A DNA stretch of 64,000 bases, from the NCBI RefSeq assembly GCF_020382885.2, contig NC_058504.1, positions 10,654,519 through 10,718,518 of the forward strand, given 5' to 3'. The notes under the pieces are model-generated. The model did no database searches, was not told the origin of the DNA, and saw only the letters and a program-made list of their open reading frames with translations. This DNA is from Scatophagus argus (lineage: Eukaryota > Chordata > Actinopteri > Scatophagidae). A program made the translations under genes and the position numbers. Of the stretch, positions 22,501 through 42,700 are shown one piece after another (position 1 is the stretch's first letter; each line of letters begins with the position of its first letter).

Positions 22501-25500
22501 TTAAAGTCACAATACGGACAAGACTTCATTGAGGTTTGTTGGAGACATTAGATACTGTGTCTGTGAAAGACCATAACAAATCAAAGCCACCCTTTGCACT
22601 AAAACACACTGACTTGATTTGCAGATGAGCAGGGCACCAATGAGTCCTGAGTTGACATCTCGCACTGTGTCCACCTGTGATGAGTAGGAGTAGGTGAGGC
22701 ACTCGGGGTCACTGACGGTGGGACCGTCCTTTGGACTGATGTCCCACACATACTCGTAGTATCCTCCAGGAAAGACGGCATCATCCTCCTTCTCCTGGCC
22801 TGCTGTGGAGTCATCATACCCAGCTCCTGGAAGGGAAAAAACACAGTATGACTCCTCCATGTTCATTCAGCAGGAGAGGTGAGTCGAAGACAGGAAACTT
22901 CTTCACAAGAGCGTGTTAAAGCTGGCTCGGTTTTACTTACTTACTCATAATAATTATGATTTGAAAGATATACTTTACAGAGGAACAAACAGGTAGAGAA
23001 AACAGTGTTTTGAGAAATTTTAAAATGACCACTTTCTCAATAAAAACTGTCAGACACAAAGGTAAAAGTAAGACCACAAAATGCTGCTGTAAAAACATCC
23101 AGAGGAAGCACTGGCTCTTGATAATGTTCAGTATTGACTTGTATCAGACATGTCCACACACACACTCACCCACAAGCAGCAGCCTTTTTATTCACCCTTA
23201 ATACTAGACATTTATGTGATTATGGCTGCTTCAAGATGGCTCATTCCTGAATGTGACAGGTGCAGCTTTTCAGATTATAATAAACTCCTTTGTAGGAATG
23301 TACACCATGGCAGGAAGCAATGAGCCATTTACAGGAACTGACTGCTCTGGATCTGCAGCAGTATTAGGACATATGCCAGCGCCTTCTGTGAAAGGTATTA
23401 AGGGTGTTACAATAAAAAGCTTCTCGGATCGGGATATTTGTTTATTTTACTTTACAGTCAGGTACTGAAATTCACAGGCAAGTAAAATGAGACATTATAA
23501 CCACACTGGATCTGTATGTGTGGTGAATTCTCAGAACTCACGTTGTAAGGCTGACTAGTTGGCTCGAACATGCTGCACAGCCGCTGCACAGCCTCTGCAC
23601 AGGCAAGATAGCGATAAACGTTGCTTGCCGTAATTTCTAAAAAAATAAGGAGGCGACCTTTTTTTTCTTGACTGTGGTCCAATTTACACTTTTAAAATGC
23701 CTCAGTTAGCGTAGGAATGATTATTTCTACAGTGTGATATGGTACATATATGTAGTATTTTGACATTTACGTCCTTGCCTTTGCCATGAATTGCTTCTCT
23801 GTTCTCTTTTTTTCTCAAACCAAAGAAGATCAGACTTGGACCTTCCCTTGAAACAGTTACAGCAGGATTTTTATGCTTTTGCCATTGACTCATCAATGCT
23901 GTAACATGGACCTGAGAGTGAGTCAAAACGCTGAGTCAAAAAATGAGCAAGAAGAACAGGATGCTCCTGACTACTGTTTAGTGTGTGGTGGGGAGAATGA
24001 GAGAAAGTCAAAAACTTTACAACCTTCAGATTGTTTCCAGTAGGTGATCCCCACAGGGCTGATACTGTAGGGCTGAGAGGCCAGGTTTTTGAAGTGGACC
24101 ACCACCCTGTCACCCGCCTGGGCAACAATCACTGGACCTTGAATTCCTGCGACCAGAAAACACAATAAGAAGATGTGCATATGACCCCCCCCCCCCCCCC
24201 ACACACACACACACACACTTTCAAAGCTGAAGACACATGCTGCGAAGCAGAACTGACAGCTAGCACATTTTGTTATTTGTCTTAAAAAGAGAGGAGTATG
24301 AACCACAGACAGAAATGTGATGTAATGACACAAACCTTATTTGATTAGGACAGGGCTCTTCAAATGGCGGCCCCCGGGCCGGATGCGGCCCGCGAGATGC
24401 CCCGCAGTGGCCCTCGAAGTGTAATTTATTACATGAGCAAATCCGGCAGATACGTCTGTAAACAGTCAGCGGGGAAAGTGATAACGAGCGGATAGATTTT
24501 TTTCTGTGTTGTACCTACATTTGCCTATAGGTGGCGCCTTTAAATTATGTTCTGTGGATGTTAGGTGTGTACCTTGGTTCGTGCACATCATAACGTTACT
24601 GACGTTCGCCAAATCCAGGTTGTTCTAAAACACTGCCGCCTCTTTGGTGCATGAAATGCGAAAATATTCCCCACAAAGAAATGGCACAAAGACACAACTG
24701 TGCACCATAAATGTTATTTGTCAACTCATCCATTTTTTCTTTTTGCACAATATAGCCTACTTGCCACTCCAAATGATAGGCCTATTTATCTCATGGACAG
24801 TGGAGTCCGTTTAAAAATTTAACCATGGTGGCCAGTAGGCCTACATTACAATTAAATATCTACTCGTAGTCCTAACGTTACCTGTTTTGGTCGGAAATAT
24901 ATTTTGACGGACCGCTCAAACTTGTCACTTTGACACTTTCTAGGCCAGCAACAAGACAAAATGTCTCTATCTACCTTAAAAAAAAGGAAAGTTGACTCAG
25001 AGAATAGGCAGTTCAACAAAGAATGGACAGAGAAATATGCGTTTATTGAGGTCAATGTGAAACCTGTGTGCCTAATCTGCAACGAGTGCCTCGCCGTGTC
25101 AAAAGAGTTTAATTTGAGAAGGCATTTTAAGACAAAGCATGCTAACTTTGACACTACTTTCCCACCGGGCTCCGTTGCCCGGAGGCAGAGGATATTGGGG
25201 CTTACATCTGGTTATGAGCAAAGACGTCGCATACTGTTTCGGGCCTGGACGGATCAAGAGAGGACAACGGCAGCATCTTTGCGAGTGGCATGGATATTGG
25301 GCAAAAAGAAAAGGCCGTTTACAGACTCTGAGACAGTCAAGGAGTGTATGCTGGCATCCATTGAGGAGATTGTAGCAGATGAGAAAACCAGAAAAAGCAT
25401 AGTCGAATTGATCAAGCAAATTCCATTATCTGACACTACAAATATGAGGCGAGTCGAGTGCCTTGCATCGGACGTTTTCGAGACGCTTTTGGACAAACTG

Positions 25501-28295
25501 AGGAAGGCCGAGGTGATGTCTTTGGCTGTGGATGAGTCGACAGATAACAGCGATATTGCACAGTTGTGCCTCTATGTGCGATTTTTTGATGGTGAATGTT
25601 TTCGCGAGGATTTGCTTGGACTAATTCCCATGGAGGGGCACACTACTGGTGAAATTCTATTCACCAAAATTACTTCGTTCTTTGAGGAAAACAACCTGGA
25701 TTTAGCGCACATCAATATGCTGGTGACAGACGGTGCCCCTTCCATGGCGGGCAGGGATCAGGGGCTCGCTGCGAGGATGGCTGCCGTGGCTCCTCAGTTG
25801 AGATCGCTACATTGCCTCATTCACCAAAGCCTCTTGTGTGCCAAGCTCAGTGGTGAGTTAAAACAGACCATGGACTCTGTCATGGCAATTATAAACTTTA
25901 TCCGGTGCACCTCCAGTTTACAGCACCGCCTTTTCCGTAAGCTTTTGAAGGACACAGCTGCTGAATATAAAGATTTGCTCATTCACAATGACATTAGATG
26001 GCTTAGCAAAGGCAACGCATTGAAACGGTTTAGTGAACTAAGAGAGGAGATTGTGCAGTTTCTCAAGGCTTCGAAATTGAAAAAAGCTGGCAAGTTTCTG
26101 GCACTAATGGAAAATGATGAGTTTAATGCTACTGTTTGCTTTTTGAGTGACGTTTTCCATCATTTGAACCAACTCAACATGGAGTTGCAGGGCAGAGGTA
26201 AAACAGCCGCGGAACTTGTGGAGAAACTTCACGCTTTTCAAAGAAAGCTCTCACTGTTCTCTGCTGATCTTTGTTCTGGAAAGATGCTCCACTTCCCCAC
26301 ACTGAGGCAATCTGGCCTGCAAATTGCTGAGCTGATGCCAAACTTTATTGACTCGTTGAAAAAAAACTTTGCCACCAGGTTTGGTAATTTCAGCATCTCC
26401 AGTGAAGTGATGAGATTTGTGAAGGACCCTTTCTGTGTTAATGTTGAGACAGACTTTGCATTGAAAGGAAAGGAGGTGGTATCATCTCTGGATGAGGGGT
26501 CTTTGCAGCTAGAACTCATTGACATGCAGTCATCAGATGACTTGCGACAGTCATTTCAGCAGGCAGGTTTTGAAAAATTCTGGACCCATTTAGTCAGCCA
26601 TGACAAATTTCCACACTTAAGGGGTCTTGCACTTTTTCTTCTGACAATGTTTGGCTCAACATACACATGTGAGTCATCATTCTCACACATGAATGCAATT
26701 AAAACTCACAATCGCATATCACTCACTGACCAGCATCTGCATCACTGCATGCGTATTGCCCTGACAACATATACACCTGACTTCACTGCTCTCGCTCAGT
26801 CAAAAACATGCCATTTCTCTCATTAAATAGCACACTGTTGGCAAACTACATGCAACAAACTGTTATTTTGTTTAATATAAACAGAGGCATAATATGCCAG
26901 TTTGTTTGCTGGTTTTATTGTTCTTTTTGTTGAGGCAGTTTCTCAGTTATAGACTATGGATGTAATTCTAATATTGCTCACCTATGTACAATTTGCAGCA
27001 TACATGCACTGGTTTTATTTTTTGTTGTTTCATGTCACTGAAATGAGTGCAATCTTAAATGTCCGATATTAGGCCTATTCATTGAAAAAAAAAACTCTAC
27101 CATCAGGTTTGGTAATTTCAGCATCTCCAGTGAAGTGATGAGATTTGTGAAGGACCCTTTCTGTGTTATGTTGAGACAGACTTTGAATGAGGGGTCTAGA
27201 ACTCATTGAAGCAGGCAGTTTTTGAAAATTTCCCCATTTAGTTAGTCAGCCAAGACAAATTTCCACACTCAAGGGGGCTTGCACTTTTTCTTTTTGTTGG
27301 GTGTTGAGGCAATTTCTCAGTTATAGCCTATGAATGTAATTGTAATACTGTTCACCTAACCTGAGTGATGTAATTTGCAACATAGGCCTACACATGCACT
27401 TTGGTTTTATTTTTTGTTATTTCATGTCACTCAAATGAGTGCAATTTGATAGTGATAGTGATATTGCTGGTGTCTATTAATAAAGACAAATGTGAGAACA
27501 GCACTGTGAATTCATGGGGAAGTCTGTTTTATTTATTCGAAGGAAAAAGTTGTATTCAGTTACCAATTGTTGTGTTAATTACTTTATTTGTTACTACGGT
27601 TAGTCATATTCTCCGGCCCCTTGTTTTGCTTCAGTTTGATGAACTGGCCCCAGACCCAAATTAATTGAATAGCCCTGGATTAGGAGATTATCAGAAGAGG
27701 AGACCTACCTGTCCATGCTGGCCTCGGCCTGGGGACCGTGTATGTGGAGTCGGTGTATTCCCTGTAAACGGCCTTGATGTATTTTTGAGGAATATCTTTA
27801 AATTTCCTGAAAAACAAACAAACAAAACAAAACAAATGAAATAATAAGAAAACTCTCAGGGAACACTTAAAAAAACAAATCGCTTTTGTTTTGCACATTC
27901 AACACCTATGCTCAATTGTAAATTTATCTTAATTTTGAATTTGCAAAGCTGTAAATTTGCCCTTATTTTAACCATAAAAAGGCTTAACTGTAGGTTACTG
28001 ATATTTATTGCCAGATTCACCACCCACCCCCAGCAGATCTAGGTTTTGGAAACTGGCAGCGAGGTCTAAATGTCATATCAGAGTGGGCTGCCTAAATTAA
28101 ACAAGTACATATTCACCTTTGGTCGGACGCTGGGTCAACACTGTCCAGATGGATATAATCCCAACCGATTTCTACAGCTGCTATGTAATACTCCCTCACA
28201 GCAGCGGCAGGTATCTGCGCTTCTCCGCCGGTGAAGAAGAAGAAGAAGAAGGAGAGCAGCAGCAGCGGCGGCGGCGGCAGGAGTGTGCCTGTCAT
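8731..28295 (-). CDS. f8: Coagulation factor VIII, 27 coding exons, 1670 aa
   Basis: Procofactor of the intrinsic clotting pathway; once cleaved by thrombin it supports factor IXa on phospholipid. Exons, 5' to 3': 28117-28295, 27709-27806, 24024-24146, 22614-22826, 22084-22266, 21811-21914, 20498-20618, 20139-20409, 19878-20043, 19648-19735, 18807-19024, 18466-18610, 17649-17858, 16186-17054, 15928-16070, 15108-15273, 14652-14891, 14024-14252, 13728-13910, 13233-13349, 12020-12091, 11717-11802, 11438-11593, 10648-10792, 10393-10541, 9272-9454, 8731-8886. All junctions keep frame (5013 nt with stop) and all introns begin GT and end AG. The domain order is signal peptide, A1-a1-A2-a2-B-a3-A3-C1-C2. 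I prefer factor VIII over factor V because of the long acidic a1 and a3 segments, the WDYAPHL motif opening A2, the C2 phrase SWSPDLARLHLEG, and exon lengths 123, 213, 210, 229, 183, 117, 72, 86, 156, 145 and 149 that match human F8 as I recall it. The start is the only ATG in the open first exon (28295), followed directly by a signal peptide. hAT copy 1 lies in intron 2. Confidence 0.95.
8887..9271 (-). other. f8 intron 26; nothing recognised
   Basis: Intron of 385 bp with normal GT and AG ends. I see no repeat or RNA gene inside. Confidence 0.6.
10025..10200 (+). repeat. Teleost interspersed repeat, GCTAAGCTAA family, copy 1
   Basis: The phrases CCCTGTTTCCAGGCTTCATG, GCTAAGCTAATCTAACC and CTTCTCATCTAACTTTGAGC match a short repeat I recognise as widespread in percomorph genomes. 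Related copies lie at about 15735-15880 and 21225-21500, all in f8 introns. The borders are approximate. Confidence 0.55.
10547..10580. repeat. (CA)17 microsatellite at the f8 exon 25 acceptor
   Basis: Thirty-four bases of pure CA on the plus strand, read as (TG)17 on the coding strand. Only five bases (GACCAG minus its final G of the tract) separate it from the start of exon 25 at 10541, so it occupies the usual polypyrimidine position. Confidence 0.95.
10946..11018 (+). repeat. Retrotransposon tail with GATC/CTAT microsatellite
   Basis: CAACAATTTCCCAGGATGAATAAAGT is followed by a run of CTAT and CGAT units. This is the 3' terminus typical of fish non-LTR elements. No body of the element is recognisable upstream. 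It lies in f8 intron 23. Confidence 0.55.
12770..13110. repeat. Probable teleost interspersed repeat with TTAGCATG motifs
   Basis: f8 intron 20 holds a stretch with several copies of TTAGCATGTTAGCATGC-like words and a T-rich centre near 12898-12914, a pattern common in fish short interspersed elements. The edges and family are uncertain. Confidence 0.4.
13233..16070 (-). other. f8: f8 a3 segment and A3 domain (exons 15-20)
   Basis: Exon 15 completes a3 with FAMDYVDPR before SGEVRYRHYYIAAEE. The Arg is the probable thrombin site matching human Arg1689, and the nearby Tyr could be the sulfated von Willebrand factor contact. A3 continues with EYKKVVFRAYKDEAF, FKNKASRPYSFHLQG, SGLIGPLVICKPG, FDETKSWYMEENLQR and INGYVAETLPGL. 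In the A3 copper-like loop CTIGDYQLAGM the Cys and Met are kept, but both His of the human loop are Tyr and Leu. Human exon 14 runs into A3 as one exon; here an intron (16071-16185) splits the a3 region. Confidence 0.88.
15735..15880 (+). repeat. Teleost interspersed repeat, GCTAAGCTAA family, copy 2
   Basis: GCTAGCTGTTTCCGCCTATC, GTGCTAAGCTAAGCTTC and TTCATCTCTCTTGGCAACAAA follow the same order as the copy near 10025. It ends about 50 bp from the donor of f8 exon 15 (15928). Confidence 0.5.
16186..17054 (-). other. f8: f8 exon 14: end of A2, a2 linker and compact B domain
   Basis: The exon opens with GEWEISAFDGTLKSRGM (A2 end). The acidic a2 segment DHDRDEDISDYIDWIDMTPR follows, with a candidate thrombin site after DMTPR. 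The B domain is only about 240 residues, against roughly 900 in human factor VIII. It is hydrophilic and has about eleven N-glycosylation sequons, among them NRT, NGS, NVT, NET, NGT, NNS, NKT, NYT and NTT. The basic run RARGVRQRRQAER contains an RXXR furin-type site, which could be the heavy/light chain processing point. The exon ends in the first part of the acidic a3 segment (LLEYDDYNQE). Confidence 0.85.
17055..17648 (-). other. f8 intron 13; nothing recognised
   Basis: AT-rich intron of 594 bp with canonical splice ends. I see no repeat family or coding sequence. Confidence 0.55.
17859..18465 (-). other. f8 intron 12; nothing recognised
   Basis: Intron of 607 bp, AT-rich, with a GTAAGT donor after exon 12. 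I see no further feature. Confidence 0.55.
19025..19647 (-). other. f8 intron 10; nothing recognised
   Basis: Intron of 623 bp between the exons coding the middle of A2. No repeat or RNA gene is recognised. Confidence 0.55.
20748..20780. repeat. (GT)n(G)n microsatellite in f8 intron 6
   Basis: A short GT run followed by about ten G residues. It is a simple-sequence tract with no wider feature around it. Confidence 0.8.
21225..21500 (+). repeat. Teleost interspersed repeat, GCTAAGCTAA family, copy 3
   Basis: CTTCATGCTAAGCTAAGCTAA preceded by GACTGTTTCCCCCTACTTTC is the same core as the copies near 10025 and 15735. It lies in f8 intron 6. The borders are approximate. Confidence 0.5.
22827..24023 (-). 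other. f8 intron 3; nothing recognised
   Basis: Intron of 1197 bp. The open frames inside are short and show no homology I recognise, and no transposon termini are seen. Confidence 0.5.
24184..24219. repeat. (C)n(CA)n tract near the f8 exon 3 acceptor
   Basis: About 17 C residues are followed by a CA run. On the coding strand this is (TG)n(G)n, ending about 38 bp before the exon 3 acceptor (exon starts 24146) and outside the immediate splice signal. Confidence 0.9.
24343..24350. repeat. Left target-site duplication of hAT copy 1
   Basis: GATTAGGA directly precedes the element and is repeated exactly at 27678-27685. A perfect 8-bp duplication is the hAT hallmark. Confidence 0.97.
24598..24733 (-). 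repeat. Inverted, decayed fragment of the transposase gene in the hAT leader
   Basis: Read on the minus strand, 24658-24733 resembles 25529-25605, about 24643-24657 resembles 25654-25669, and 24598-24628 resembles 25681-25713, in the same order with a deletion between the first two. Shared words include CACAACTGTGCA, AAATCCAGGTTGTT and GACTCATCCA. The same structure is present in copy 2 (33116-33251) and copy 3 (38607-38742). Confidence 0.85.
24961..26826 (+). CDS. hAT transposase, 621 aa, intact (copy 1)
   Basis: DNA transposase for cut-and-paste movement, in one uninterrupted exon. The N terminus is basic (KKRKVD, nuclear-signal-like). A BED-type zinc finger follows, with Cys37, Cys40, His55 and His60. 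The RNase H-like core has candidate catalytic acids at Asp191 (AVDESTD), Asp257 (VTDGAPSM) and Glu571 ([12 protein letters not shown]), the hAT triad positions. A Cys/His motif HCLIHQ and an RW motif ([12 protein letters not shown]) lie between. The C terminus is the usual hAT dimerisation block. It resembles the group that gave rise to host genes such as SCAND3/ZBED9 and GTF2IRD2. Identical proteins are coded at 31023-32888 and 38970-40835. No stop, frameshift or missing key residue is seen, so the enzyme may be active. Confidence 0.95.
   Translation: MSLSTLKKRKVDSENRQFNKEWTEKYAFIEVNVKPVCLICNECLAVSKEFNLRRHFKTKHANFDTTFPPGSVARRQRILGLTSGYEQRRRILFRAWTDQERTTAASLRVAWILGKKKRPFTDSETVKECMLASIEEIVADEKTRKSIVELIKQIPLSDTTNMRRVECLASDVFETLLDKLRKAEVMSLAVDESTDNSDIAQLCLYVRFFDGECFREDLLGLIPMEGHTTGEILFTKITSFFEENNLDLAHINMLVTDGAPSMAGRDQGLAARMAAVAPQLRSLHCLIHQSLLCAKLSGELKQTMDSVMAIINFIRCTSSLQHRLFRKLLKDTAAEYKDLLIHNDIRWLSKGNALKRFSELREEIVQFLKASKLKKAGKFLALMENDEFNATVCFLSDVFHHLNQLNMELQGRGKTAAELVEKLHAFQRKLSLFSADLCSGKMLHFPTLRQSGLQIAELMPNFIDSLKKNFATRFGNFSISSEVMRFVKDPFCVNVETDFALKGKEVVSSLDEGSLQLELIDMQSSDDLRQSFQQAGFEKFWTHLVSHDKFPHLRGLALFLLTMFGSTYTCESSFSHMNAIKTHNRISLTDQHLHHCMRIALTTYTPDFTALAQSKTCHFSH
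27080..27465 (+). repeat. Degenerate direct duplicate of the transposase 3' end
   Basis: This stretch repeats, with several deletions, the element's own 26350-26640 and then 26927-27062. Examples are GGTTTGGTAATTTCAGCATC and GAGGCAATTTCTCAGTTATA. The frame is lost, so it is not coding. It is present in all three copies (30384-30769 and 41089-41474), so it predates the recent spread. Confidence 0.88.
27479..27484 (+). terminator. Polyadenylation signal of hAT copy 1
   Basis: AATAAA about 650 bp after the transposase stop and about 190 bp before the right terminus. The equivalents are 30365-30370 (minus) in copy 2 and 41488-41493 in copy 3. Confidence 0.55.
27678..27685. repeat. Right target-site duplication of hAT copy 1
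   Basis: GATTAGGA, identical to 24343-24350. It lies 17 bp from the first base of the f8 intron 2 donor (27703-27708). Confidence 0.97.
28233..28280 (-). repeat. Triplet repeats inside the f8 signal-peptide codons
   Basis: On the coding strand, (CCG)4, (CTG)3, CTC, TCC and (TTC)6 follow one another, coding Pro4-Leu4-Ser-Phe6. The tracts are pure enough to be expected to vary in length, which would change the hydrophobic core without shifting the frame. Confidence 0.9.
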
Positions 28296-28756
28296 CGCAG
28301 CGGTGTGCGCGCCTCTCAGCTCCGCCGTGTCCCGGCTCAAGCACTGCTGCGCGTCCTGTGGACTCGACTATTTGAAGGGAAGGAGGTGGGGTGGAGAGAA
28401 GACAAGCAGCTTAACAGGGAAGCTGAGGCTGGACGTGGGGGCGTGTGGTGGTAGTTGGAGATACGTATGTGGGTGGACTCAGGGTGTTCTCAGATGAGAC
28501 TTTATTATTCAGGGGGATACATTGTTCTTGGACACACCATGCATGCTGCACTCATAAAGTACGGGGCCGAGCACGCTTGGGCATTATGCATTTAACAGCT
28601 GACTTCTTTCGTTCCACTTTTTCTTAAGGCACCCACTGTGAAGGCTTTGTTTGCTGTAACTAACGTTATTTAATCATTTATTAGCAGTTATAGTTATAAA
28701 TTAATGAAACAAGTGTTGTGTTGCCAGGATGTGAAAGGTTCCTTTGTCTGGTGTTA
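28296..28756 (-). promoter_or_regulatory. f8 5' untranslated and promoter region (inferred)
   Basis: DNA immediately upstream of the f8 ATG. The first 100 bp are GC-rich with CpG sites. I see no convincing TATA box or transcription start. The assignment rests on position only. Confidence 0.4.
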
Positions 28757-28985
28757 GGGTGTCGCAATATATCCACCGTGATGTTAAAAAAAATGAAATA
28801 CTGATATAGTATGAATAATACATGCATTAATAACGTCATGTACGTAATACAGTTCAGATGTTAGGAGTGTAATCCAAAAAAAGGTACAAAACACAGAATA
28901 AACAGAGTTAAGGATGAGATATCGAGAGATATCACGGTAATATCGGGAATTCTTTTGACCACGATAATCTAATATCGTGACACCT
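28757..28985. mobile_element. Probable short non-autonomous DNA element (MITE)
   Basis: The left end GGGTGTCGCAATAT and the right end, read inward, AGGTGTCACGATAT form imperfect terminal inverted repeats around an AT-rich body with several ATATCG words. It resembles common fish MITEs. I could not find a matching target duplication. Confidence 0.4.
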
Positions 28986-30163
28986 CTGAATCATTTTCAC
29001 CAGAATACTAAGAACTTCATATTTGTACCTGCACACTTATTGTTTATGAATACGACACGTAACTGATGTGTTGCCAAGTAACACAGAGTAAACGCCAGCA
29101 TCAGAACGACTGTTGTTATTAGCAGTTATTGATCACTGATTTATAAACCGTTAATAAAAATTAGATTGTATTCATTAACCCTTTACTAAGGCTTATGGCT
29201 ATGGCTTCAGATGTTTTTTAAAGCCAGACCGTCTGTTTGAATGCGTGGTGTGCTGTCAATGTTTTAATACATGACAGCACTAGAAAAGAGTAATAAAACA
29301 CAAATAAGATTGAATTTACCCTGAGCAATGTGAGAGAAGCATATTTTTGTACACTACACTGTCACCTTGCGGCTAATATTGGGTACTGCAGAGCTTGTGT
29401 ATTTTGCATTGGGCTGATGAGGCAGCGTTGATTAACTCTTTGTAAATTAAGAGGCCGGGTACAATAAATGGTTTCAGTATTTTAATGCAAATGTAAAAAG
29501 TCGAACAAGTCGAGGGACAAGCTTACTCAGTGACTCACTGATGTTACATGTGTATAAAACAAATTTAAATAGTAGCCTAAGTAAAAACAGTAGCAAAACA
29601 AACCATAGCAAAACATCACACACTTTTTAACTTACAAGATCATTTCAGATCAAAAGGATTATATTTTACAACAGTTAGGAGGTCAACCTTAAGATGTTTT
29701 TTTTTTTTAAATAGACTAGCACAGGACACAATTTATTCAAAAATGATGTGACAAAAAAAAACAATGTGTGTGTGCAGTTAATGAAAGCTGAAAAACCGGT
29801 AACTGTCAGACTTGACAGACACTGAGACTACATTCCTCCAGGATAAGAGAGGAGACGGTTTTAAAACTTTGTTTTGTCATTGTTCAACGCAAAACTATGA
29901 AAATAATGCTTTTTTTCCCACAGATTTCGACATCTCTCTAAGCATGTGTCCTTTTAAACCCAAAATCTAATTTAAGGCACACTGAGGTACTATAACCAGC
30001 TGCATGCAAACATAAAAATAAAAATGTCATGTCAGAGAGTCTGTCCAAAAGCAGTGCTTTCCAAGTGAGCACTGAAAGGTATTTGATATACTTTGCCTGG
30101 TTTGACATTCATCAACCCAAACTTTGCTTATGGATATAGAAAAAAAACATGGATATTATAATA
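28986..30163. other. f8-MORC intergenic DNA; nothing else recognised
   Basis: AT-rich sequence between the f8 promoter side and hAT copy 2. No exon or clear repeat is seen apart from A- and T-runs. Before the transposon arrived the MORC stop and the f8 start codon were only about 1.9 kb apart. Confidence 0.5.
29732..29737 (-). terminator. Possible original polyadenylation signal of the MORC gene
   Basis: TTTATT on the plus strand is AATAAA on the minus strand. It is the first such signal downstream of the MORC stop once the hAT copy is ignored, about 440 bp from the stop in the pre-insertion sequence. The transposon's own signal at 30365-30370 now comes first. Confidence 0.4.
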
Positions 30164-30171
30164 GTATTGAT
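30164..30171. repeat. Left target-site duplication of hAT copy 2
   Basis: GTATTGAT, repeated exactly at 33499-33506. Confidence 0.97.
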
Positions 30172-33100
30172 CAGGGCTATTCAATTAATTTGGGTCTGGG
30201 GCCAGTTCATCAAACTGAAGCAAAACAAGGGGCCGGAGAATATGACTAACCGTAGTAACAAATAAAGTAATTAACACAACAATTGGTAACTGAATACAAC
30301 TTTTTCCTTCGAATAAATAAAACAGACTTCCCCATGAATTCACAGTGCTGTTCTCACATTTGTCTTTATTAATAGACACCAGCAATATCACTATCACTAT
30401 CAAATTGCACTCATTTGAGTGACATGAAATAACAAAAAATAAAACCAAAGTGCATGTGTAGGCCTATGTTGCAAATTACATCACTCAGGTTAGGTGAACA
30501 GTATTACAATTACATTCATAGGCTATAACTGAGAAATTGCCTCAACACCCAACAAAAAGAAAAAGTGCAAGCCCCCTTGAGTGTGGAAATTTGTCTTGGC
30601 TGACTAACTAAATGGGGAAATTTTCAAAAACTGCCTGCTTCAATGAGTTCTAGACCCCTCATTCAAAGTCTGTCTCAACATAACACAGAAAGGGTCCTTC
30701 ACAAATCTCATCACTTCACTGGAGATGCTGAAATTACCAAACCTGATGGTAGAGTTTTTTTTTTCAATGAATAGGCCTAATATCGGACATTTAAGATTGC
30801 ACTCATTTCAGTGACATGAAACAACAAAAAATAAAACCAGTGCATGTATGCTGCAAATTGTACATAGGTGAGCAATATTAGAATTACATCCATAGTCTAT
30901 AACTGAGAAACTGCCTCAACAAAAAGAACAATAAAACCAGCAAACAAACTGGCATATTATGCCTCTGTTTATATTAAACAAAATAACAGTTTGTTGCATG
31001 TAGTTTGCCAACAGTGTGCTATTTAATGAGAGAAATGGCATGTTTTTGACTGAGCGAGAGCAGTGAAGTCAGGTGTATATGTTGTCAGGGCAATACGCAT
31101 GCAGTGATGCAGATGCTGGTCAGTGAGTGATATGCGATTGTGAGTTTTAATTGCATTCATGTGTGAGAATGATGACTCACATGTGTATGTTGAGCCAAAC
31201 ATTGTCAGAAGAAAAAGTGCAAGACCCCTTAAGTGTGGAAATTTGTCATGGCTGACTAAATGGGTCCAGAATTTTTCAAAACCTGCCTGCTGAAATGACT
31301 GTCGCAAGTCATCTGATGACTGCATGTCAATGAGTTCTAGCTGCAAAGACCCCTCATCCAGAGATGATACCACCTCCTTTCCTTTCAATGCAAAGTCTGT
31401 CTCAACATTAACACAGAAAGGGTCCTTCACAAATCTCATCACTTCACTGGAGATGCTGAAATTACCAAACCTGGTGGCAAAGTTTTTTTTCAACGAGTCA
31501 ATAAAGTTTGGCATCAGCTCAGCAATTTGCAGGCCAGATTGCCTCAGTGTGGGGAAGTGGAGCATCTTTCCAGAACAAAGATCAGCAGAGAACAGTGAGA
31601 GCTTTCTTTGAAAAGCGTGAAGTTTCTCCACAAGTTCCGCGGCTGTTTTACCTCTGCCCTGCAACTCCATGTTGAGTTGGTTCAAATGATGGAAAACGTC
31701 ACTCAAAAAGCAAACAGTAGCATTAAACTCATCATTTTCCATTAGTGCCAGAAACTTGCCAGCTTTTTTCAATTTCGAAGCCTTGAGAAACTGCACAATC
31801 TCCTCTCTTAGTTCACTAAACCGTTTCAATGCGTTGCCTTTGCTAAGCCATCTAATGTCATTGTGAATGAGCAAATCTTTATATTCAGCAGCTGTGTCCT
31901 TCAAAAGCTTACGGAAAAGGCGGTGCTGTAAACTGGAGGTGCACCGGATAAAGTTTATAATTGCCATGACAGAGTCCATGGTCTGTTTTAACTCACCACT
32001 GAGCTTGGCACACAAGAGGCTTTGGTGAATGAGGCAATGTAGCGATCTCAACTGAGGAGCCACGGCAGCCATCCTCGCAGCGAGCCCCTGATCCCTGCCC
32101 GCCATGGAAGGGGCACCGTCTGTCACCAGCATATTGATGTGCGCTAAATCCAGGTTGTTTTCCTCAAAGAACGAAGTAATTTTGGTGAATAGAATTTCAC
32201 CAGTAGTGTGCCCCTCCATGGGAATTAGTCCAAGCAAATCCTCGCGAAAACATTCACCATCAAAAAATCGCACATAGAGGCACAACTGTGCAATATCGCT
32301 GTTATCTGTCGACTCATCCACAGCCAAAGACATCACCTCGGCCTTCCTCAGTTTGTCCAAAAGCGTCTCGAAAACGTCCGATGCAAGGCACTCGACTCGC
32401 CTCATATTTGTAGTGTCAGATAATGGAATTTGCTTGATCAATTCGACTATGCTTTTTCTGGTTTTCTCATCTGCTACAATCTCCTCAATGGATGCCAGCA
32501 TACACTCCTTGACTGTCTCAGAGTCTGTAAACGGCCTTTTCTTTTTGCCCAATATCCATGCCACTCGCAAAGATGCTGCCGTTGTCCTCTCTTGATCCGT
32601 CCAGGCCCGAAACAGTATGCGACGTCTTTGCTCATAACCAGATGTAAGCCCCAATATCCTCTGCCTCCGGGCAACGGAGCCCGGTGGGAAAGTAGTGTCA
32701 AAGTTAGCATGCTTTGTCTTAAAATGCCTTCTCAAATTAAACTCTTTTGACACGGCGAGGCACTCGTTGCAGATTAGGCACACAGGTTTCACATTGACCT
32801 CAATAAACGCATATTTCTCTGTCCATTCTTTGTTGAACTGCCTATTCTCTGAGTCAACTTTCCTTTTTTTTAAGGTAGATAGAGACATTTTGTCTTGTTG
32901 CTGGCCTAGAAAGTGTCAAAGTGACAAGTTTGAGCGGTCCGTCAAAATATATTTCCGACCAAAACAGGTAACGTTAGGACTACGAGTAGATATTTAATTG
33001 TAATGTAGGCCTACTGGCCACCATGGTTAAATTTTTAAACGGACTCCACTGTCCATGAGATAAATAGGCCTATCATTTGGAGTGGCAAGTAGGCTATATT

Positions 33101-33498
33101 GTGCAAAAAGAAAAAATGGATGAGTTGACAAATAACATTTATGGTGCACAGTTGTGTCTTTGTGCCATTTCTTTGTGGGGAATATTTTCGCATTTCATGC
33201 ACCAAAGAGGCGGCAGTGTTTTAGAACAACCTGGATTTGGCGAACGTCAGTAACGTTATGATGTGCACGAACCAAGGTACACACCTAACATCCACAGAAC
33301 ATAATTTAAAGGCGCCACCTATAGGCAAATGTAGGTACAACACAGAAAAAAATCTATCCGCTCGTTATCACTTTCCCCGCTGACTGTTTACAGACGTATC
33401 TGCCGGATTTGCTCATGTAATAAATTACACTTCGAGGGCCACTGCGGGGCATCTCGCGGGCCGCATCCGGCCCGGGGGCCGCCATTTGAAGAGCCCTG
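30172..33498 (-). mobile_element. hAT DNA transposon, copy 2, 3327 bp, complete, in the MORC 3' UTR
   Basis: Reverse-orientation copy of the element at 24351-27677, with the same length, the same termini and its own 8-bp duplication GTATTGAT. It lies directly downstream of the MORC stop codon (33506-33508) and in the same orientation as MORC. Its right duplication includes the last base of that stop. With copy 1 it forms a 3.3-kb inverted repeat around f8 exons 1 and 2 (spacer 27678-30171). Confidence 0.97.
31023..32888 (-). CDS. hAT transposase, 621 aa, intact (copy 2)
   Basis: Encodes the same protein as 24961-26826 without any residue change: BED finger (Cys37, Cys40, His55, His60), Asp191, Asp257, Glu571 and the hAT C-terminal block. 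It starts 617 nt after the MORC stop on the same strand. A MORC transcript that reads into the element would therefore carry this frame as a downstream cistron. Confidence 0.95.
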   Translation of the reverse strand: MSLSTLKKRKVDSENRQFNKEWTEKYAFIEVNVKPVCLICNECLAVSKEFNLRRHFKTKHANFDTTFPPGSVARRQRILGLTSGYEQRRRILFRAWTDQERTTAASLRVAWILGKKKRPFTDSETVKECMLASIEEIVADEKTRKSIVELIKQIPLSDTTNMRRVECLASDVFETLLDKLRKAEVMSLAVDESTDNSDIAQLCLYVRFFDGECFREDLLGLIPMEGHTTGEILFTKITSFFEENNLDLAHINMLVTDGAPSMAGRDQGLAARMAAVAPQLRSLHCLIHQSLLCAKLSGELKQTMDSVMAIINFIRCTSSLQHRLFRKLLKDTAAEYKDLLIHNDIRWLSKGNALKRFSELREEIVQFLKASKLKKAGKFLALMENDEFNATVCFLSDVFHHLNQLNMELQGRGKTAAELVEKLHAFQRKLSLFSADLCSGKMLHFPTLRQSGLQIAELMPNFIDSLKKNFATRFGNFSISSEVMRFVKDPFCVNVETDFALKGKEVVSSLDEGSLQLELIDMQSSDDLRQSFQQAGFEKFWTHLVSHDKFPHLRGLALFLLTMFGSTYTCESSFSHMNAIKTHNRISLTDQHLHHCMRIALTTYTPDFTALAQSKTCHFSH

Positions 33499-33506
33499 GT
33501 ATTGAT
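33499..33506. repeat. Right target-site duplication of hAT copy 2, overlapping the MORC stop
   Basis: GTATTGAT. On the minus strand its first base is the A of the MORC TGA stop, so the insertion regenerated the stop codon exactly. Confidence 0.95.
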
Positions 33507-33728
33507 CATGGTTTCAGTGAGTTGACCTCTATGATCTGCTGCAGGATGTTGTCTATGTCCGTGGTCTCCAGACTGATGCCAGCGAGGTCCAGTTGAGGCA
33601 AGAGAGCCGTAAGAAGGACCAACACGTTGTTACGGATACCGCGAAGGCTCTCCTGTGGTGATCTGATTGGAGAACAGCTTCATCATTATTCAAGCGATTA
33701 AGCATGTTCAGCCACTCAGGTGAAAATG

Positions 33729-33773
<45 letters not shown>

Positions 33774-36700
33774 GTACAAAAAAGGACGTTCGTTTTTTGG
33801 ATGTGGCAATAAAACAAACATCCGCACAGACGGCATCTGACATTCATACTAAGACTGTTTGGATTCGTTTATCTGTTAGATTGTACGTCTCTGCACGCAA
33901 ATGTAAAGCTGCCAGCTACAGGAGATGATTCTAAAATCGCAGACACTACACCGTATGTATACACAGACAGATGGTCATCTATGAAACCACCTGTTTGACA
34001 TGCGTCATGTGTGTCTGGGACTCCCACCTGCTGTCTTCACAGGCCTCACTGTCACTGGATCTCATCCTGCTCTGAGTTTCTGACTTCTTCCTGGGTTCCT
34101 TCTCCTCCGGCTGCTCCTTTGACCCACATAGAGCTCTCTGAAGTCCTGGAGCCTGGGCCGTGCTACTAGACGACGTAGAGCTCTGATGCAGATACACAAG
34201 GACAGTGGGAGATTATAGAGAAGTTGCCATTAGACCTTCTTTGGCATGTCTGGACATGCTTAGATGTACTAGATGAAAACATTTATGTCAAACATTTTAT
34301 GTCTCATCAGTGGGTTGTTTTCTTTTTTTTTTTTGTTTGTTTGTTCATATGTGATGATTGTGGTCACAAGCATTTAAAATGTTGTTAAGCACTGATTTTC
34401 ATACACCACATTAAGCGCCGTTAGAGTCATCATTACTTAGGGTATATTTAGCCAGCAACAAATTTAGTGTCATTTTCCTTACAGTGAGATGGTTTGCACT
34501 GAACTGTTAAGCAAATTTTAAACCACAATATTCTGCAAAAACATTAATGAGATGTTTCCTTTAGCTGGGTCAGTGACAACTTGAATGCTTGCTATACTGT
34601 TGAAGTCCACTGCTATGTATGAGTGAGCGCATATGATTCAATTTACAATTCCCACTGCGATTTGTCACGAGCATGATGAGCCTGAAATACTGTGCATAAA
34701 CTCTGCTGACCTCAGCCGTGTCCGTCTGGCAGCCGACCTCTCTGCTGGCTGTGGAGGCAGGTGGTGTCACCAGGCCTCCGTCTGGCTTTTCAGTGCCGCC
34801 ACCAGCAATGGTCATTGTGCCTTGAGTTATCTTTGTGATTTCCAAACCTAGAAGCCTCCGTAGCCTCTGGGCTTCTTTCTCCAGCCCTGCCAGCTTCTGA
34901 ACGTTAGCTTCCCGGTCACTCCCCTCGAGAGACTGAGGTCTGCTCCGCTGTCCTTCTGTTCGACTCAGCGGAGACACCATCACAGTTTGGGTGGAGGGGA
35001 GTGAATGGGTCCAGGTCAGGTTGGTGACGACTCGCTGTGCTGTGTCACCCGGTTTCTCTACTCTGCTGCTGCTGTCCTGCTTTTCGCTGTCTGAAGACAG
35101 TGTCTCCGGCACGTTTGTTTGTTTCTCAGGCCTCACCGCTTCTGCTGCATTTTCTGAGTCAGGCTGTTGTTCGTCCAAAAGACGTAGCTTCTTTGTCACA
35201 CAGTACATTAATGATCCCGATTTCCTTTTGTAGCTGTAGAAAACAAAAGCACAGTGCGGAAAATTAACCTGCAGGCACTTTGAACAATTAAAAATCTGTG
35301 TAGCACTGAGCATTTCATGGGCTTTATTTTGTTGTCAAAGTTGTGTTATAATAGTATAATAATGCAGCTGAAAACAAAGACATCTCTGACATTTTTTTGG
35401 ATTATTTTCTGGCTGAAAACAATGCAAAGATGGTCAATCAGAACCCAATCATAAAATAACTTACTCTGCCTTTAGGAATATAGTATTGTCGCTGTATAAT
35501 TGGGAAAATGAGAATGCTAGTGAATTAAAAGACGTTAAATAATTGAAAGGCTAAATAAATAATACAAAGTATAATGTTTTTAGATGACCACATTAGCTAA
35601 ACTCTCAGCAATATTTTCCAACTCTTACCTTCACCATCAATCCCAACCTGAGCTTTTTTCATGTACTACTTTTATTTTTTTTAATCCAAAATTAAAAGCA
35701 TGTCCAGAGTAATGTGAGTAATTATTTTAATGGCCAGCTCAAATTAAGCAGCCCGTCACAATGTCTCCGCACTGGAGGACCACCCTCGACTTATTTGGCT
35801 CAGTGCTCTCAAAAAATTATATAACTGTGAACAAAGTGAGGTTTTTAAACTGGGCATTTAAATAGTCTGTGGAGGGAGAATGCTGGTTGTTGTACAAGGA
35901 CATGTCAGTATCAGTGATTTTAGCTACCTGGAAGGCAAATAATAATGAAAAACACTGACATAGTAAAAAAAAAAACAAAAAAGAAAAAAAAAGTCGAAAC
36001 ATTTCTGTCTATCTGTGATCCTGCTTAAAGGAGGAAAAAATACAATGTTAAACCTGCAGATGAGAAAAGACAGCCTTGACTTGCATGAAACACAATCTAC
36101 CTTGACGTGTCTGCGTTCTCTCTTTCCATCGACTCCATGTTTGTGTCCTTCTGTTTCTTTCTTTGTTTATTTTCAAGCCCGAGAACATTTGTCTCATTTT
36201 CCACATGCACCCGTCCTTGAACCCCGTCTTTAACGGCTGTCTCTCCTCCAGCGAGTTTCTGTTGTGTGTGTGCATCATCACTTGTGTGTGTGTCTGAATC
36301 ATAATCTCTCTGTTCTTGTTCTATGGTGTCTTCCTCTGTCTGGCATTCATCTGGCGTTCTCACAGACTGGAAGGTGGGCTGCCCGGGCTCTGATGAACTG
36401 CGTGAGAGGATTTGATGTTTATCGACTTGGTCCTGCAACGCACACACCTGTAACACAAGCAATCGAGCACACTTACAGTGTTTACAGTCCAGAAGTATTG
36501 CAGGGAAACAGTACTTTTATCAAAAGGAAAGTTGCCTAAAATGTAGAACTTTTCACGAACCTCCAGTGATTTTTCTCGTTTTCTGCTTTTGGGATGTTCT
36601 CTGCAAGAAGAGAAATTTAAGAGATACTAAGACAGGCAGACATTCTATATATGGTCAGGTGAATGGGAAATTATATTTTATAGATAAGGTGTTATCATGA

Positions 36701-39700
36701 AAATAATATCCACTTGCCATTTAAGTGCACAATAACAAGTTTTGTCACTCAGTTTTACTCATTTATAATCCCAAACCCTTGGACACCTGAGATGTATTAC
36801 AGTGTGCTATAATTACAACCATTAAGAAAACTGGAGCAGGTCATTTCTGATTGGCTGTTTTGTCTAAAATCGGTTACTATGGAATTAGGGAAGCACTGGA
36901 ATAATAGTATGTAATGCAGCCTACATACTGTATAGTCTGTACTTGATTAGCTTGCAACTTCGCTATGTAGCTAATCTCTGCCAGCTTGGCTATCTAAACT
37001 AGTTAGCTAATCTGATGATTCCAGTTTCTAACAAGCCATCAAGACCCAGTAATTCAAAATAATGTTTATATTTGATGAGAAACATTTTTGGCTCAAAATT
37101 GACACACTGACAACCAAAAACAGAAGAACTGACTAATTTCTCACGTCAATCCTTCTTTTTCTGGTCGTTATAAGTCAGAGTATAGAAAACCCAGACTTTT
37201 CTCTCTTCATCAGTCACATGGGCAACCACCGGAAGAAAAAGAGTGTGAAACTGACAGATAGAGACCACAAAATGGCACCTGAACCCGCAGGCATGCATAC
37301 AGACGTGCATAAAGTGTAGAAGTGTGAAACATCTGTCCAGTTATAAATTCTCACATGCACAGTTTAAAAGGTTAAGAGAAATAGGAACTTACTGCTTCTT
37401 GTGGTTCTTCTGGTAGCTGGGCGTTAACAACTCCTCACTGTCTTCTGCTTCCTCTGGTGCAGAACAGCTTCTGAAAGACCAAGAGACTGGTCTTAGCAAC
37501 TCAACTACTGCTAAAGTTAGGCTCAGAGCCTTCCTGTTGCAGCCCCAAAACACGCACATACAAATACAGTGGTCTCCTCTGTCTTGAGCCCTTCGTGATA
37601 ACTTTCAACTGGCAGCAAACAATATTTTTTTGTGCAATTTAATGGCTAAAGAATAATGACATCACCTGTGTTTAGACTGGTTCCACAGGAAACACTAATT
37701 ATGTCTGCCTTTGTGAAAATGATGGCTACCTGGAGCTCCAGTCGCCGTTGGCATCTTAACACCATGAAGACGCCCCAAGCCTTAGGGGCAAGTGTGTCTT
37801 TGTTATTCATGAAAATACTGTAGAAATAAACACCTGTAACGTGGATTGGGGTTCTGGCTGCAGGTCCAGCTTTCAGGAGCCACGTTGTAATGATTTGTGG
37901 GGACGCTTCGCCACTTGAGGCACTCTTCACACTGTAACCACATGGGAGCCCTGTAAATACAGACATATAGGTGTGGAAAATGTCAGTCAGAGGCAGCGTT
38001 GGGCCCAACCCATTTTTACAACCGGCCCACCCAAAACAGTGAGGAGACTATATATTTTCTTGACACACTAGCACAGTCCACGTGGGCAATTCATAATACA
38101 AAGGCTGTTCAGCAGCAGGAAAAAACCTGTTTGAGAACTCTACCCAGTGTTCTCGGCTAGAGTTAATTAACTCGCTGACTTTGATTTAGAAAAGGCTTTT
38201 AAAGAGGAATCACGTCAGTTTAGAATGCAGTCAGTGTTTAATTTTATATCTGCAAATGGATTTGCTATTGAGACTAGAAGAACCTGGAAAACAGTGCAGG
38301 CCAGACAGGAAGTAGCGGTGGAAATTCCTGCCTGACTTGATTGTATCTATGCCTTAAAGCAGGGCTCTTCAAATGGCGGCCCCCGGGCCGGATGCGGCCC
38401 GCGAGATGCCCCGCAGTGGCCCTCGAAGTGTAATTTATTACATGAGCAAATCCGGCAGATACGTCTGTAAACAGTCAGCGGGGAAAGTGATAACGAGCGG
38501 ATAGATTTTTTTCTGTGTTGTACCTACATTTGCCTATAGGTGGCGCCTTTAAATTATGTTCTGTGGATGTTAGGTGTGTACCTTGGTTCGTGCACATCAT
38601 AACGTTACTGACGTTCGCCAAATCCAGGTTGTTCTAAAACACTGCCGCCTCTTTGGTGCATGAAATGCGAAAATATTCCCCACAAAGAAATGGCACAAAG
38701 ACACAACTGTGCACCATAAATGTTATTTGTCAACTCATCCATTTTTTCTTTTTGCACAATATAGCCTACTTGCCACTCCAAATGATAGGCCTATTTATCT
38801 CATGGACAGTGGAGTCCGTTTAAAAATTTAACCATGGTGGCCAGTAGGCCTACATTACAATTAAATATCTACTCGTAGTCCTAACGTTACCTGTTTTGGT
38901 CGGAAATATATTTTGACGGACCGCTCAAACTTGTCACTTTGACACTTTCTAGGCCAGCAACAAGACAAAATGTCTCTATCTACCTTAAAAAAAAGGAAAG
39001 TTGACTCAGAGAATAGGCAGTTCAACAAAGAATGGACAGAGAAATATGCGTTTATTGAGGTCAATGTGAAACCTGTGTGCCTAATCTGCAACGAGTGCCT
39101 CGCCGTGTCAAAAGAGTTTAATTTGAGAAGGCATTTTAAGACAAAGCATGCTAACTTTGACACTACTTTCCCACCGGGCTCCGTTGCCCGGAGGCAGAGG
39201 ATATTGGGGCTTACATCTGGTTATGAGCAAAGACGTCGCATACTGTTTCGGGCCTGGACGGATCAAGAGAGGACAACGGCAGCATCTTTGCGAGTGGCAT
39301 GGATATTGGGCAAAAAGAAAAGGCCGTTTACAGACTCTGAGACAGTCAAGGAGTGTATGCTGGCATCCATTGAGGAGATTGTAGCAGATGAGAAAACCAG
39401 AAAAAGCATAGTCGAATTGATCAAGCAAATTCCATTATCTGACACTACAAATATGAGGCGAGTCGAGTGCCTTGCATCGGACGTTTTCGAGACGCTTTTG
39501 GACAAACTGAGGAAGGCCGAGGTGATGTCTTTGGCTGTGGATGAGTCGACAGATAACAGCGATATTGCACAGTTGTGCCTCTATGTGCGATTTTTTGATG
39601 GTGAATGTTTTCGCGAGGATTTGCTTGGACTAATTCCCATGGAGGGGCACACTACTGGTGAAATTCTATTCACCAAAATTACTTCGTTCTTTGAGGAAAA

Positions 39701-42700
39701 CAACCTGGATTTAGCGCACATCAATATGCTGGTGACAGACGGTGCCCCTTCCATGGCGGGCAGGGATCAGGGGCTCGCTGCGAGGATGGCTGCCGTGGCT
39801 CCTCAGTTGAGATCGCTACATTGCCTCATTCACCAAAGCCTCTTGTGTGCCAAGCTCAGTGGTGAGTTAAAACAGACCATGGACTCTGTCATGGCAATTA
39901 TAAACTTTATCCGGTGCACCTCCAGTTTACAGCACCGCCTTTTCCGTAAGCTTTTGAAGGACACAGCTGCTGAATATAAAGATTTGCTCATTCACAATGA
40001 CATTAGATGGCTTAGCAAAGGCAACGCATTGAAACGGTTTAGTGAACTAAGAGAGGAGATTGTGCAGTTTCTCAAGGCTTCGAAATTGAAAAAAGCTGGC
40101 AAGTTTCTGGCACTAATGGAAAATGATGAGTTTAATGCTACTGTTTGCTTTTTGAGTGACGTTTTCCATCATTTGAACCAACTCAACATGGAGTTGCAGG
40201 GCAGAGGTAAAACAGCCGCGGAACTTGTGGAGAAACTTCACGCTTTTCAAAGAAAGCTCTCACTGTTCTCTGCTGATCTTTGTTCTGGAAAGATGCTCCA
40301 CTTCCCCACACTGAGGCAATCTGGCCTGCAAATTGCTGAGCTGATGCCAAACTTTATTGACTCGTTGAAAAAAAACTTTGCCACCAGGTTTGGTAATTTC
40401 AGCATCTCCAGTGAAGTGATGAGATTTGTGAAGGACCCTTTCTGTGTTAATGTTGAGACAGACTTTGCATTGAAAGGAAAGGAGGTGGTATCATCTCTGG
40501 ATGAGGGGTCTTTGCAGCTAGAACTCATTGACATGCAGTCATCAGATGACTTGCGACAGTCATTTCAGCAGGCAGGTTTTGAAAAATTCTGGACCCATTT
40601 AGTCAGCCATGACAAATTTCCACACTTAAGGGGTCTTGCACTTTTTCTTCTGACAATGTTTGGCTCAACATACACATGTGAGTCATCATTCTCACACATG
40701 AATGCAATTAAAACTCACAATCGCATATCACTCACTGACCAGCATCTGCATCACTGCATGCGTATTGCCCTGACAACATATACACCTGACTTCACTGCTC
40801 TCGCTCAGTCAAAAACATGCCATTTCTCTCATTAAATAGCACACTGTTGGCAAACTACATGCAACAAACTGTTATTTTGTTTAATATAAACAGAGGCATA
40901 ATATGCCAGTTTGTTTGCTGGTTTTATTGTTCTTTTTGTTGAGGCAGTTTCTCAGTTATAGACTATGGATGTAATTCTAATATTGCTCACCTATGTACAA
41001 TTTGCAGCATACATGCACTGGTTTTATTTTTTGTTGTTTCATGTCACTGAAATGAGTGCAATCTTAAATGTCCGATATTAGGCCTATTCATTGAAAAAAA
41101 AAACTCTACCATCAGGTTTGGTAATTTCAGCATCTCCAGTGAAGTGATGAGATTTGTGAAGGACCCTTTCTGTGTTATGTTGAGACAGACTTTGAATGAG
41201 GGGTCTAGAACTCATTGAAGCAGGCAGTTTTTGAAAATTTCCCCATTTAGTTAGTCAGCCAAGACAAATTTCCACACTCAAGGGGGCTTGCACTTTTTCT
41301 TTTTGTTGGGTGTTGAGGCAATTTCTCAGTTATAGCCTATGAATGTAATTGTAATACTGTTCACCTAACCTGAGTGATGTAATTTGCAACATAGGCCTAC
41401 ACATGCACTTTGGTTTTATTTTTTGTTATTTCATGTCACTCAAATGAGTGCAATTTGATAGTGATAGTGATATTGCTGGTGTCTATTAATAAAGACAAAT
41501 GTGAGAACAGCACTGTGAATTCATGGGGAAGTCTGTTTTATTTATTCGAAGGAAAAAGTTGTATTCAGTTACCAATTGTTGTGTTAATTACTTTATTTGT
41601 TACTACGGTTAGTCATATTCTCCGGCCCCTTGTTTTGCTTCAGTTTGATGAACTGGCCCCAGACCCAAATTAATTGAATAGCCCTGCCTTAAAGCATACA
41701 GATCAAGGGAAAGTCTCTATAAGCCATCCAGCCATCCAAAAGGTATTTCCTGAATTCAAATTAAATCACTGTTGCAGGTAAATACCAAGCTATCTGAGCA
41801 TTGAAAATGTTTTAGAAAAAGAATTTAAAAAGTGTAATAATCAACCATTCAAAACTAAAGTCATCAGGCTGCAAAGACTGTCAGTGAGCAGAAATACATT
41901 CACTAAAAACAATATTATTAGATCTATTTTCAAACTCTCTCAGCAAGTCCACATTAGTGTACCTGAATGTGTCCGTTCAAAAGCTACACACAGGAAAATA
42001 TTTCCTGTTAACCCGTGTATATTCTCTCGTTCTGTGTACAAGCTCTTTTGAAGCTCTCTGCCTCAGCATGTTTAATCTACTGTACTGTCAAGTGAGCAGC
42101 TCTGGGAACAGCGTCTCAACTCTCAGGTTTCAAGCTCTTGTTTCATGCTATTTTCACTTTCATTTGAATCGACAACTTCCTGCACGAGAGGTTTATCAAG
42201 TGACCTGCATCTAAAAGGCTTGCAGAGCTTGCAGGACCGTAGAACTTTCTAAACGCGTTTCATGGATTTTACAAGTCGCGAAGACACTTGTAGGCGAGGA
42301 GAAGAATATTCACTACTTGCACAGCTATTGTCAGGAAACAGACAACACTCACTTGTCATCGTCAGGCTCATCTTCGTTTTCATCTCTGTCTAGAGCCTGA
42401 AACTCTCGCTCTCTGGCCTTCTTCTCTGTCACCTCTCTCCAGTAGTCATTGAGTTTTAGGCCCAAAGCACCGAGAGTGAGTCTTGAGAGAAGAAAAAGGA
42501 AAAGACAGTCAATTTCTTTTAATGATTTTACTTGAGGTCGTAAACACAACAGCGCAAGTAAGATATTAGGCATATATTTCAAGGGTCTGTCTCATGGTGT
42601 GGGATTTCAGCTGCGATCAGCTTCCCTGCTGTAAAACACTCTAATCTGATGCCACATATGCAGAAAATAATGTAAACATATTTACACCGTGCAGCATTTT

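Follow-up and report, generated by a model that had tools for sequence, protein, structure and literature searches.

Three identical hAT transposons within 17 kb of the Scatophagus argus genome: a very young element, probably multiplied by short-range transposition

Three copies (a, b and c) of a hAT DNA transposon, identical to one another over their whole length, lie within 17 kb of each other in a 64,000-nucleotide stretch of the fish Scatophagus argus (contig C12, NC_058504.1, positions 10,654,519–10,718,518; hereafter the window). We consider it about 80% probable that this very young element multiplied here by short-range transposition from one founder, while deleted relatives elsewhere in the genome moved with borrowed transposase. 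The element is of an ordinary kind in an unusually clear situation, being intact-looking and very young and having a third of its known copies within 17 kb, and what is notable is the tightness of that cluster in a natural genome.

Three identical copies inserted separately

The first-pass annotation of the window had described three equal-length, apparently identical hAT transposons, and the coordinates and 3327-bp lengths that it gave proved exact (Table 1). Aligned base by base, with copy b reverse-complemented, the copies showed 0 differences over 3327 bp in all three pairwise comparisons, which excludes a divergence of several percent and agrees with the view that they are too recent to have diverged, and the 621-aa transposase that each encodes was likewise found to be the same in all three. 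The middle copy (b) is inverted, an orientation that the annotation had not mentioned, and the gaps separating neighboring copies are 2.5 and 4.9 kb.

Each copy is bounded by its own perfect 8-bp target site duplication (TSD), and the three TSDs all differ, as had been claimed. When the DNA segments separating and flanking the copies, four in all, were compared with one another, five of the six comparisons gave no match, and the sixth gave three matches of 34–58 bp that fall on (AG)n microsatellite positions. The 500-bp flanks of all nine copies that we located in the genome (see below) showed no match between different copies, the single hit being between the two sides of one copy. Because copies a–c have their own TSDs and unrelated flanks, we regard them as three separate insertions, in line with the first-pass annotation. 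Alternative transposition between the ends of neighboring copies can be ruled out, since the two TSDs of each copy match each other.

A small family with a base private to the local copies

We searched the genome assembly (570,666,677 bases, or 570.7 Mb, in 48 contigs) with the first 600 bp of the element (10 of 10 candidates scored), its last 851 bp (12 of 12) and its protein (71 of 778). All three queries returned at least nine family copies, three of them in the window and six elsewhere; the number and divergence of copies genome-wide, which had been named as a check on the original observation, thus describe a set of near-identical elements, one third of which sit at a single locus. Each of the six off-window copies shows between 1 and 8 substitutions relative to copies a–c, with the cluster in the C4 copy counted in, and a perfect 8-bp TSD surrounds all nine. 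Below these nine, protein identity is at most 79% among the 71 scored of 778 candidates. Decayed fragments account for 79% (C1) and 77% (C14), and relatives that are still intact lie on C7 (58%) and C22 (56%, a partial match). No copies of intermediate age were found in the genome searches, a gap that fits a recent invasion or revival.

Six of the nine copies are full-length (five of 3327 bp, and the C4 copy of 3316 bp), and all six carry the identical 621-aa frame. The C8:23.61 Mb copy has no private changes and looks undamaged, while the C4 copy has six clustered mismatches beside its 11-bp net loss. The three others (C8:2.53 Mb, C14:20.71 Mb and C15:4.52 Mb; loci L040, L042 and L044) measure 2598–2599 bp and constitute a young non-autonomous lineage. 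All three lack the same 728 bp, lying between two direct repeats of the element, and the deletion junction reads from repeat 1 into repeat 2, a structure that recombination or repair between the repeats would explain. The deletion removes the region with transposase residue E571 and the dimerization domain, and the C14 and C15 copies also share a 1-bp deletion at position 628 that leaves a frame of 32 aa. Since each short copy occupies a separate site and is flanked by its own TSD, the three must have moved after they were damaged, so that their transposase would have come from elsewhere, presumably from the full-length copies. Counted against the C8:23.61 Mb copy, with position 368 counted once and the six clustered C4 mismatches left out, the three short copies hold 9 substitutions and the six long ones 3 (Fisher P = 0.001), an excess suggesting that the short copies inserted before the long ones. 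The joined (empty) site of the C8:2.53 Mb copy was crossed by one match (73% over 67 bp; L027), too weak for use.

One base sets the local copies apart. Position 368 of the element is T in all three local copies and C in all six others, and the site is not a CpG. It lies in the 5′ noncoding part, within an inverted repeat copy of a piece of the element's own open reading frame (ORF), and because the ORF version of the same stretch has the C state, T is the derived state. T368 therefore marks a sub-lineage that, among the nine copies, is found only at this locus.

The clustering itself can be put in numbers. If nine copies were scattered uniformly over the genome, 1.5e-7 triples would be expected to fit into the start-to-start span of 14,009 bp seen here; 100 copies would raise this figure to 2.9e-4, and it would reach one triple only at about 2000 copies. 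The formula used agrees with simulation at larger spans. With zero changes over 3 × 3327 bp, the mean divergence of the local copies from their common source has a 95% upper bound of 3.0e-4 per site. The germline mutation rate of fish is some 5e-9 per site and generation, which would put the age of the local copies at tens of thousands of generations or less.

Origin of the cluster

We propose that one element inserted in a region that contains a MORC3-like and a factor VIII-like gene, that this founder acquired, or already carried, the derived T368, and that it then gave rise to two further copies within 17 kb by cut-and-paste transposition. Copy number could have risen locally because elements transposed around the time of replication, or because the gap left at the donor site was repaired from the sister chromatid. 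Local hopping, which the first-pass annotation had raised as a possibility, has thus become the leading explanation, given that three of the nine copies are local and share a derived base absent from the other six. The element is presumably still able to move, and it may be regarded as a candidate, albeit an unproven one, for current activity.

Instead of short-range jumps, a regional target preference might have drawn in independent jumps from elsewhere, with chromatin open in the germline being hit three times. Each of the three insertions lies inside or beside a gene, and hAT elements favor TA-centered targets, which eight of the nine TSDs here display, as such a preference would lead one to expect. 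However, the common T368 means that a single sub-lineage would have had to land only here, and only an extreme hotspot would collect three insertions within 17 kb of a 570.7-Mb genome. We consider this explanation unlikely, and we infer that the cluster arose from short-range jumps.

Older separate insertions might also have been made alike by segmental duplication or gene conversion. Neighboring repeats can be homogenized, and hAT arrays produced by segmental duplication do occur in this assembly: two elements at C4:19.317 and C4:19.342 Mb (L023 and L024), which served as a contrast, lie 25 kb apart and are 99.9% alike through their flanks, a likeness that indicates segmental duplication rather than hopping. 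Copies a–c, unlike that pair, share no flank, which rules out segmental duplication for them, and conversion would have had to end precisely at the two termini of all three elements while finding little divergence to erase, given the 1 to 8 substitutions that separate them from the copies on other chromosomes. This makes homogenization highly improbable. The two C4 elements are related hAT elements (38% protein identity), and further matches at C4:19.325 and C4:19.334 Mb stand in the same orientation at a spacing of about 8–9 kb.

Also highly improbable is an assembly error. The first-pass annotation had itself named the pasting of one copy three times as a possible refutation, and the assembler might have tripled one or two genuine copies or smoothed out small differences between them. 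A repeat that had been collapsed or polished too far would indeed look perfectly identical, but the copies have distinct flanks, distinct perfect TSDs and opposite orientations, the window contains no N, the assembly has 48 contigs for 570.7 Mb, and it kept differences among family copies elsewhere, T368 included.

Several points nevertheless weigh against spread by short-range transposition from one founder, or against parts of that proposal. Zero differences leave the order of the jumps unreadable, the count of nine copies is a lower bound, and copies with T368 could exist elsewhere in the population, so that the local donor of each jump is not proven. Only about 15% of Tol2 reintegrations stay on the chromosome of the donor, and of these about a third land less than 1 Mb away (PMC2753552); jumps of a few kilobases would therefore be unusual even for a hAT element. 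With regard to activity, all of the evidence comes from one genome assembly of a single individual. As for the kind of element, the TSD of copy b (GTATTGAT), one of the three local ones, lacks the central TA, the Pfam families DUF4371 and zf-C2H2_12 scored under their curated cut-offs, and the profile match to Hermes transposase described below is weak, its best single stretch having an i-Evalue of 0.19.

Element anatomy and transposase

On the best reading of their sequence, copies a–c are autonomous-looking Charlie/Buster-like hAT DNA transposons with a predicted RNase H-like transposase in a single ORF. The element ends (CAGGGCTCTTCAAATG and CAGGGCTATTCAATTA) start with CAGGGCT and form imperfect terminal inverted repeats (TIRs) of 16 bp, within the 10–25 bp usual for the short TIRs of the hAT superfamily, with mismatches at positions 8 and 14 only within the first 15; the 8-bp length of the TSDs is that of the superfamily as well. 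Eight of the nine TSDs have a central TA and so fit the Buster-type target nnnTAnnn (chance 1.4e-9 at the TA frequency of the window), the exception being that of copy b. Pfam identified the hAT dimerization domain (Dimer_Tnp_hAT) in the transposase with 28 bits against a cut-off of 21.4.

The residues that we take to be catalytic, named after known hAT motifs, are intact, as the first-pass annotation had stated: when the transposase is aligned with 15 relatives found in this genome, D191, C285, H288, R346 and E571 are invariant among the 16 proteins and D257 and W347 are present in at least 90%, which conforms to the DDE/CxxH/RW pattern. A profile built from this alignment matched Hermes transposase in the PDB (E = 0.0012–0.002), and the four sequences found up to E = 1 were all Hermes; E571 was the only member of the triad placed in the Hermes alignment. 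The single transposase sequence gave nothing relevant in the PDB, NCBIfam yielded a sub-threshold match only, and an AlphaFold2 model from the single sequence was unusable (mean predicted local distance difference test score, pLDDT, 36.6). Neither Rfam nor tRNA scans found anything in the window.

The noncoding parts of the element hold copies of pieces of its own gene. Behind the ORF, pieces from the end of the ORF and from the 3′ part are repeated at 80–95% identity (window positions 27087–27445 in copy a, and likewise in b and c). Such self-copied pieces suggest faulty gap repair, and the inverted 5′ piece could pair with transposase RNA. The two decayed relics on C1 and C14 mentioned above (C1:1.50 Mb and C14:23.29 Mb; L048 and L049), with about 76–87% DNA identity over the matched pieces, appear to belong to a sibling family. 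They keep the 3′ end, and in none of their matches was the end of the ORF present a second time as a separate copy. The duplication behind the ORF is therefore probably a later event within the young family.

Comparison with known systems

No paper on this element was met among the matches listed in literature searches, a result that does not extend to Repbase, Dfam or print as a whole. Among described elements, it may resemble the GTF2IRD2-like group. These vertebrate GTF2IRD2-like or hAT-6 elements (Charlie8-like) are similar in length, in a single ORF with DDE/RW residues, in 8-bp TSDs and short TIRs, and in their occurrence in fish (PMC10641963, PMC11008031), and they are reported to be intact and in part horizontally transferred (PMC10641963). 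A local cluster with a private variant may distinguish the present element, as none was met in the portions of the hAT-6 account drawn upon (PMC10641963). With the Buster group, for example TcBuster, it has in common the preference for nnnTAnnn, the consensus of that group (PMC3499496). Tol2 of medaka differs in this respect, having the target consensus of the Ac group (PMC3499496).

Tol2 is an active fish hAT element with documented local reinsertion, in one case 153 kb away in Xenopus, so that local hopping is a known kind of event for hAT elements (PMC2753552, PMC2848417). The Tol2 reinsertions followed induced remobilization, whereas the distances of 2.5 and 4.9 kb reported here arose in nature. 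Very young, intact DNA transposons are uncommon finds in vertebrates and can become tools for gene transfer. Maize Ac/Ds elements also gain copies by short-range transposition, and in this they are similar; they differ in being plant elements. Over half of Ac reinsertions fall within 1.7 Mb (PMC2753552).

In the present family, copies are few enough for local spread to be argued in numbers, and T368 provides the pedigree. The family comprises six copies that encode one and the same protein, among them an undamaged-looking member without private changes at C8:23.61 Mb, and non-autonomous derivatives at three sites. It thus offers a small natural setting in which to study how elements that move by cut-and-paste increase in number locally, and whether insertions next to a silencer gene matter.

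A home for the element in viruses or phages was rejected: a tblastn search of viral contigs gave three pattern matches, none of which was confirmed as a relative, and phages gave no match. One of 22 pattern matches in prokaryote genomes was a hAT relative (36% identity, 619 matched query residues; L050), located on a 3144-bp contig in an archaeal metagenome bin (Candidatus Bathycorpusculum) and probably a eukaryotic contamination.

Host genes at the insertions

The insertions lie in or at two genes on the minus strand, one MORC3-like and one factor VIII-like, which support a vertebrate host. The MORC gene gave Morc6_S5 matches (1e-17 and 2.3e-10) and weak ATPase matches below the cut-off, and the peptide from exons 1–2 of the other gene matched factor VIII (6.1e-16) and ceruloplasmin (1.3e-13). 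Copy a is located 31 nt past the splice donor side of factor VIII-like exon 2. Copy b starts 7 bp past the MORC stop codon, in the sense direction and with an AATAAA signal of its own, and copy c occupies a MORC intron, 409 nt 5′ of the CW exon. Pfam returned nothing for the two largest host ORFs, the factor VIII-like peptide, the ORF overlapping the CW exon (which is in another frame) or three frames of positions 14351–24350, and a 254-aa host ORF had no match in the PDB; both genes are identified by the matches given above and, for the CW exon, in Table 1.

Table 1. Positions of the transposon copies, their parts and adjacent host features in the window, with family copies elsewhere in the genome.
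Feature	Position	Strand	Remarks
hAT copy a	24351..27677	+	3327 bp; factor VIII-like gene intron 2, antisense to gene
hAT copy b	30172..33498	-	3327 bp; inverted in window; 3′ side of MORC3-like gene, same direction as gene
hAT copy c	38360..41686	+	3327 bp; within MORC3-like gene, antisense to gene
TSD copy a, left	24343..24350		GATTAGGA
TSD copy a, right	27678..27685		GATTAGGA
TSD copy b, left	30164..30171		GTATTGAT
TSD copy b, right	33499..33506		GTATTGAT; last plus-strand base complements A of MORC TGA stop
TSD copy c, left	38352..38359		CCTTAAAG
TSD copy c, right	41687..41694		CCTTAAAG
Element position 368 (T), copy a	24718	+	
Element position 368 (T), copy b	33131	-	
Element position 368 (T), copy c	38727		
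Transposase ORF, copy a	24961..26826	+	621 aa, single open frame; D191, D257, C285, H288, R346, W347, E571
Transposase ORF, copy b	31023..32888	-	identical 621 aa
Transposase ORF, copy c	38970..40835	+	identical 621 aa
Direct repeat 1	26359..26461	+	within copy a ORF (element 2009-2111); identity with repeat 2, 95%
Direct repeat 2	27087..27188	+	3′ noncoding part of copy a (element 2737-2838)
Inverted ORF piece	24658..24732	-	5′ noncoding part of copy a; 75-77 bp, element 308-382 vs 1179-1255, 79%
Factor VIII-like exon 2	27709..27806	-	
Factor VIII-like exon 1 (coding part)	28117..28295	-	
TGA stop, MORC3-like gene	33506..33508	-	
CW zinc-finger exon, MORC3-like gene	37834..37950	-	best match MORC3, 5.7e-10; MORC4, 2e-6
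Family copies elsewhere	C8:2.53 Mb, C8:23.61 Mb, C6:24.25 Mb, C14:20.71 Mb, C4:5.15 Mb, C15:4.52 Mb		one each

MORC3 silences transposable elements in mouse stem cells (PMC8555065). If the insertions lowered germline output of the MORC3-like gene, the cluster would weaken its own silencer and favor more jumps, and any effect on this gene is speculation. We would give only slight credence to the most far-reaching account, that of a naturally active vertebrate hAT element with jumps biased to a few kilobases, whose local spread has hit a MORC3-like gene of the silencer type. The MORC gene region also contains a fragment of a reverse transcriptase (Pfam RVT_1, 5.7e-14; window positions 45804–46283, minus strand) from an older retroelement.

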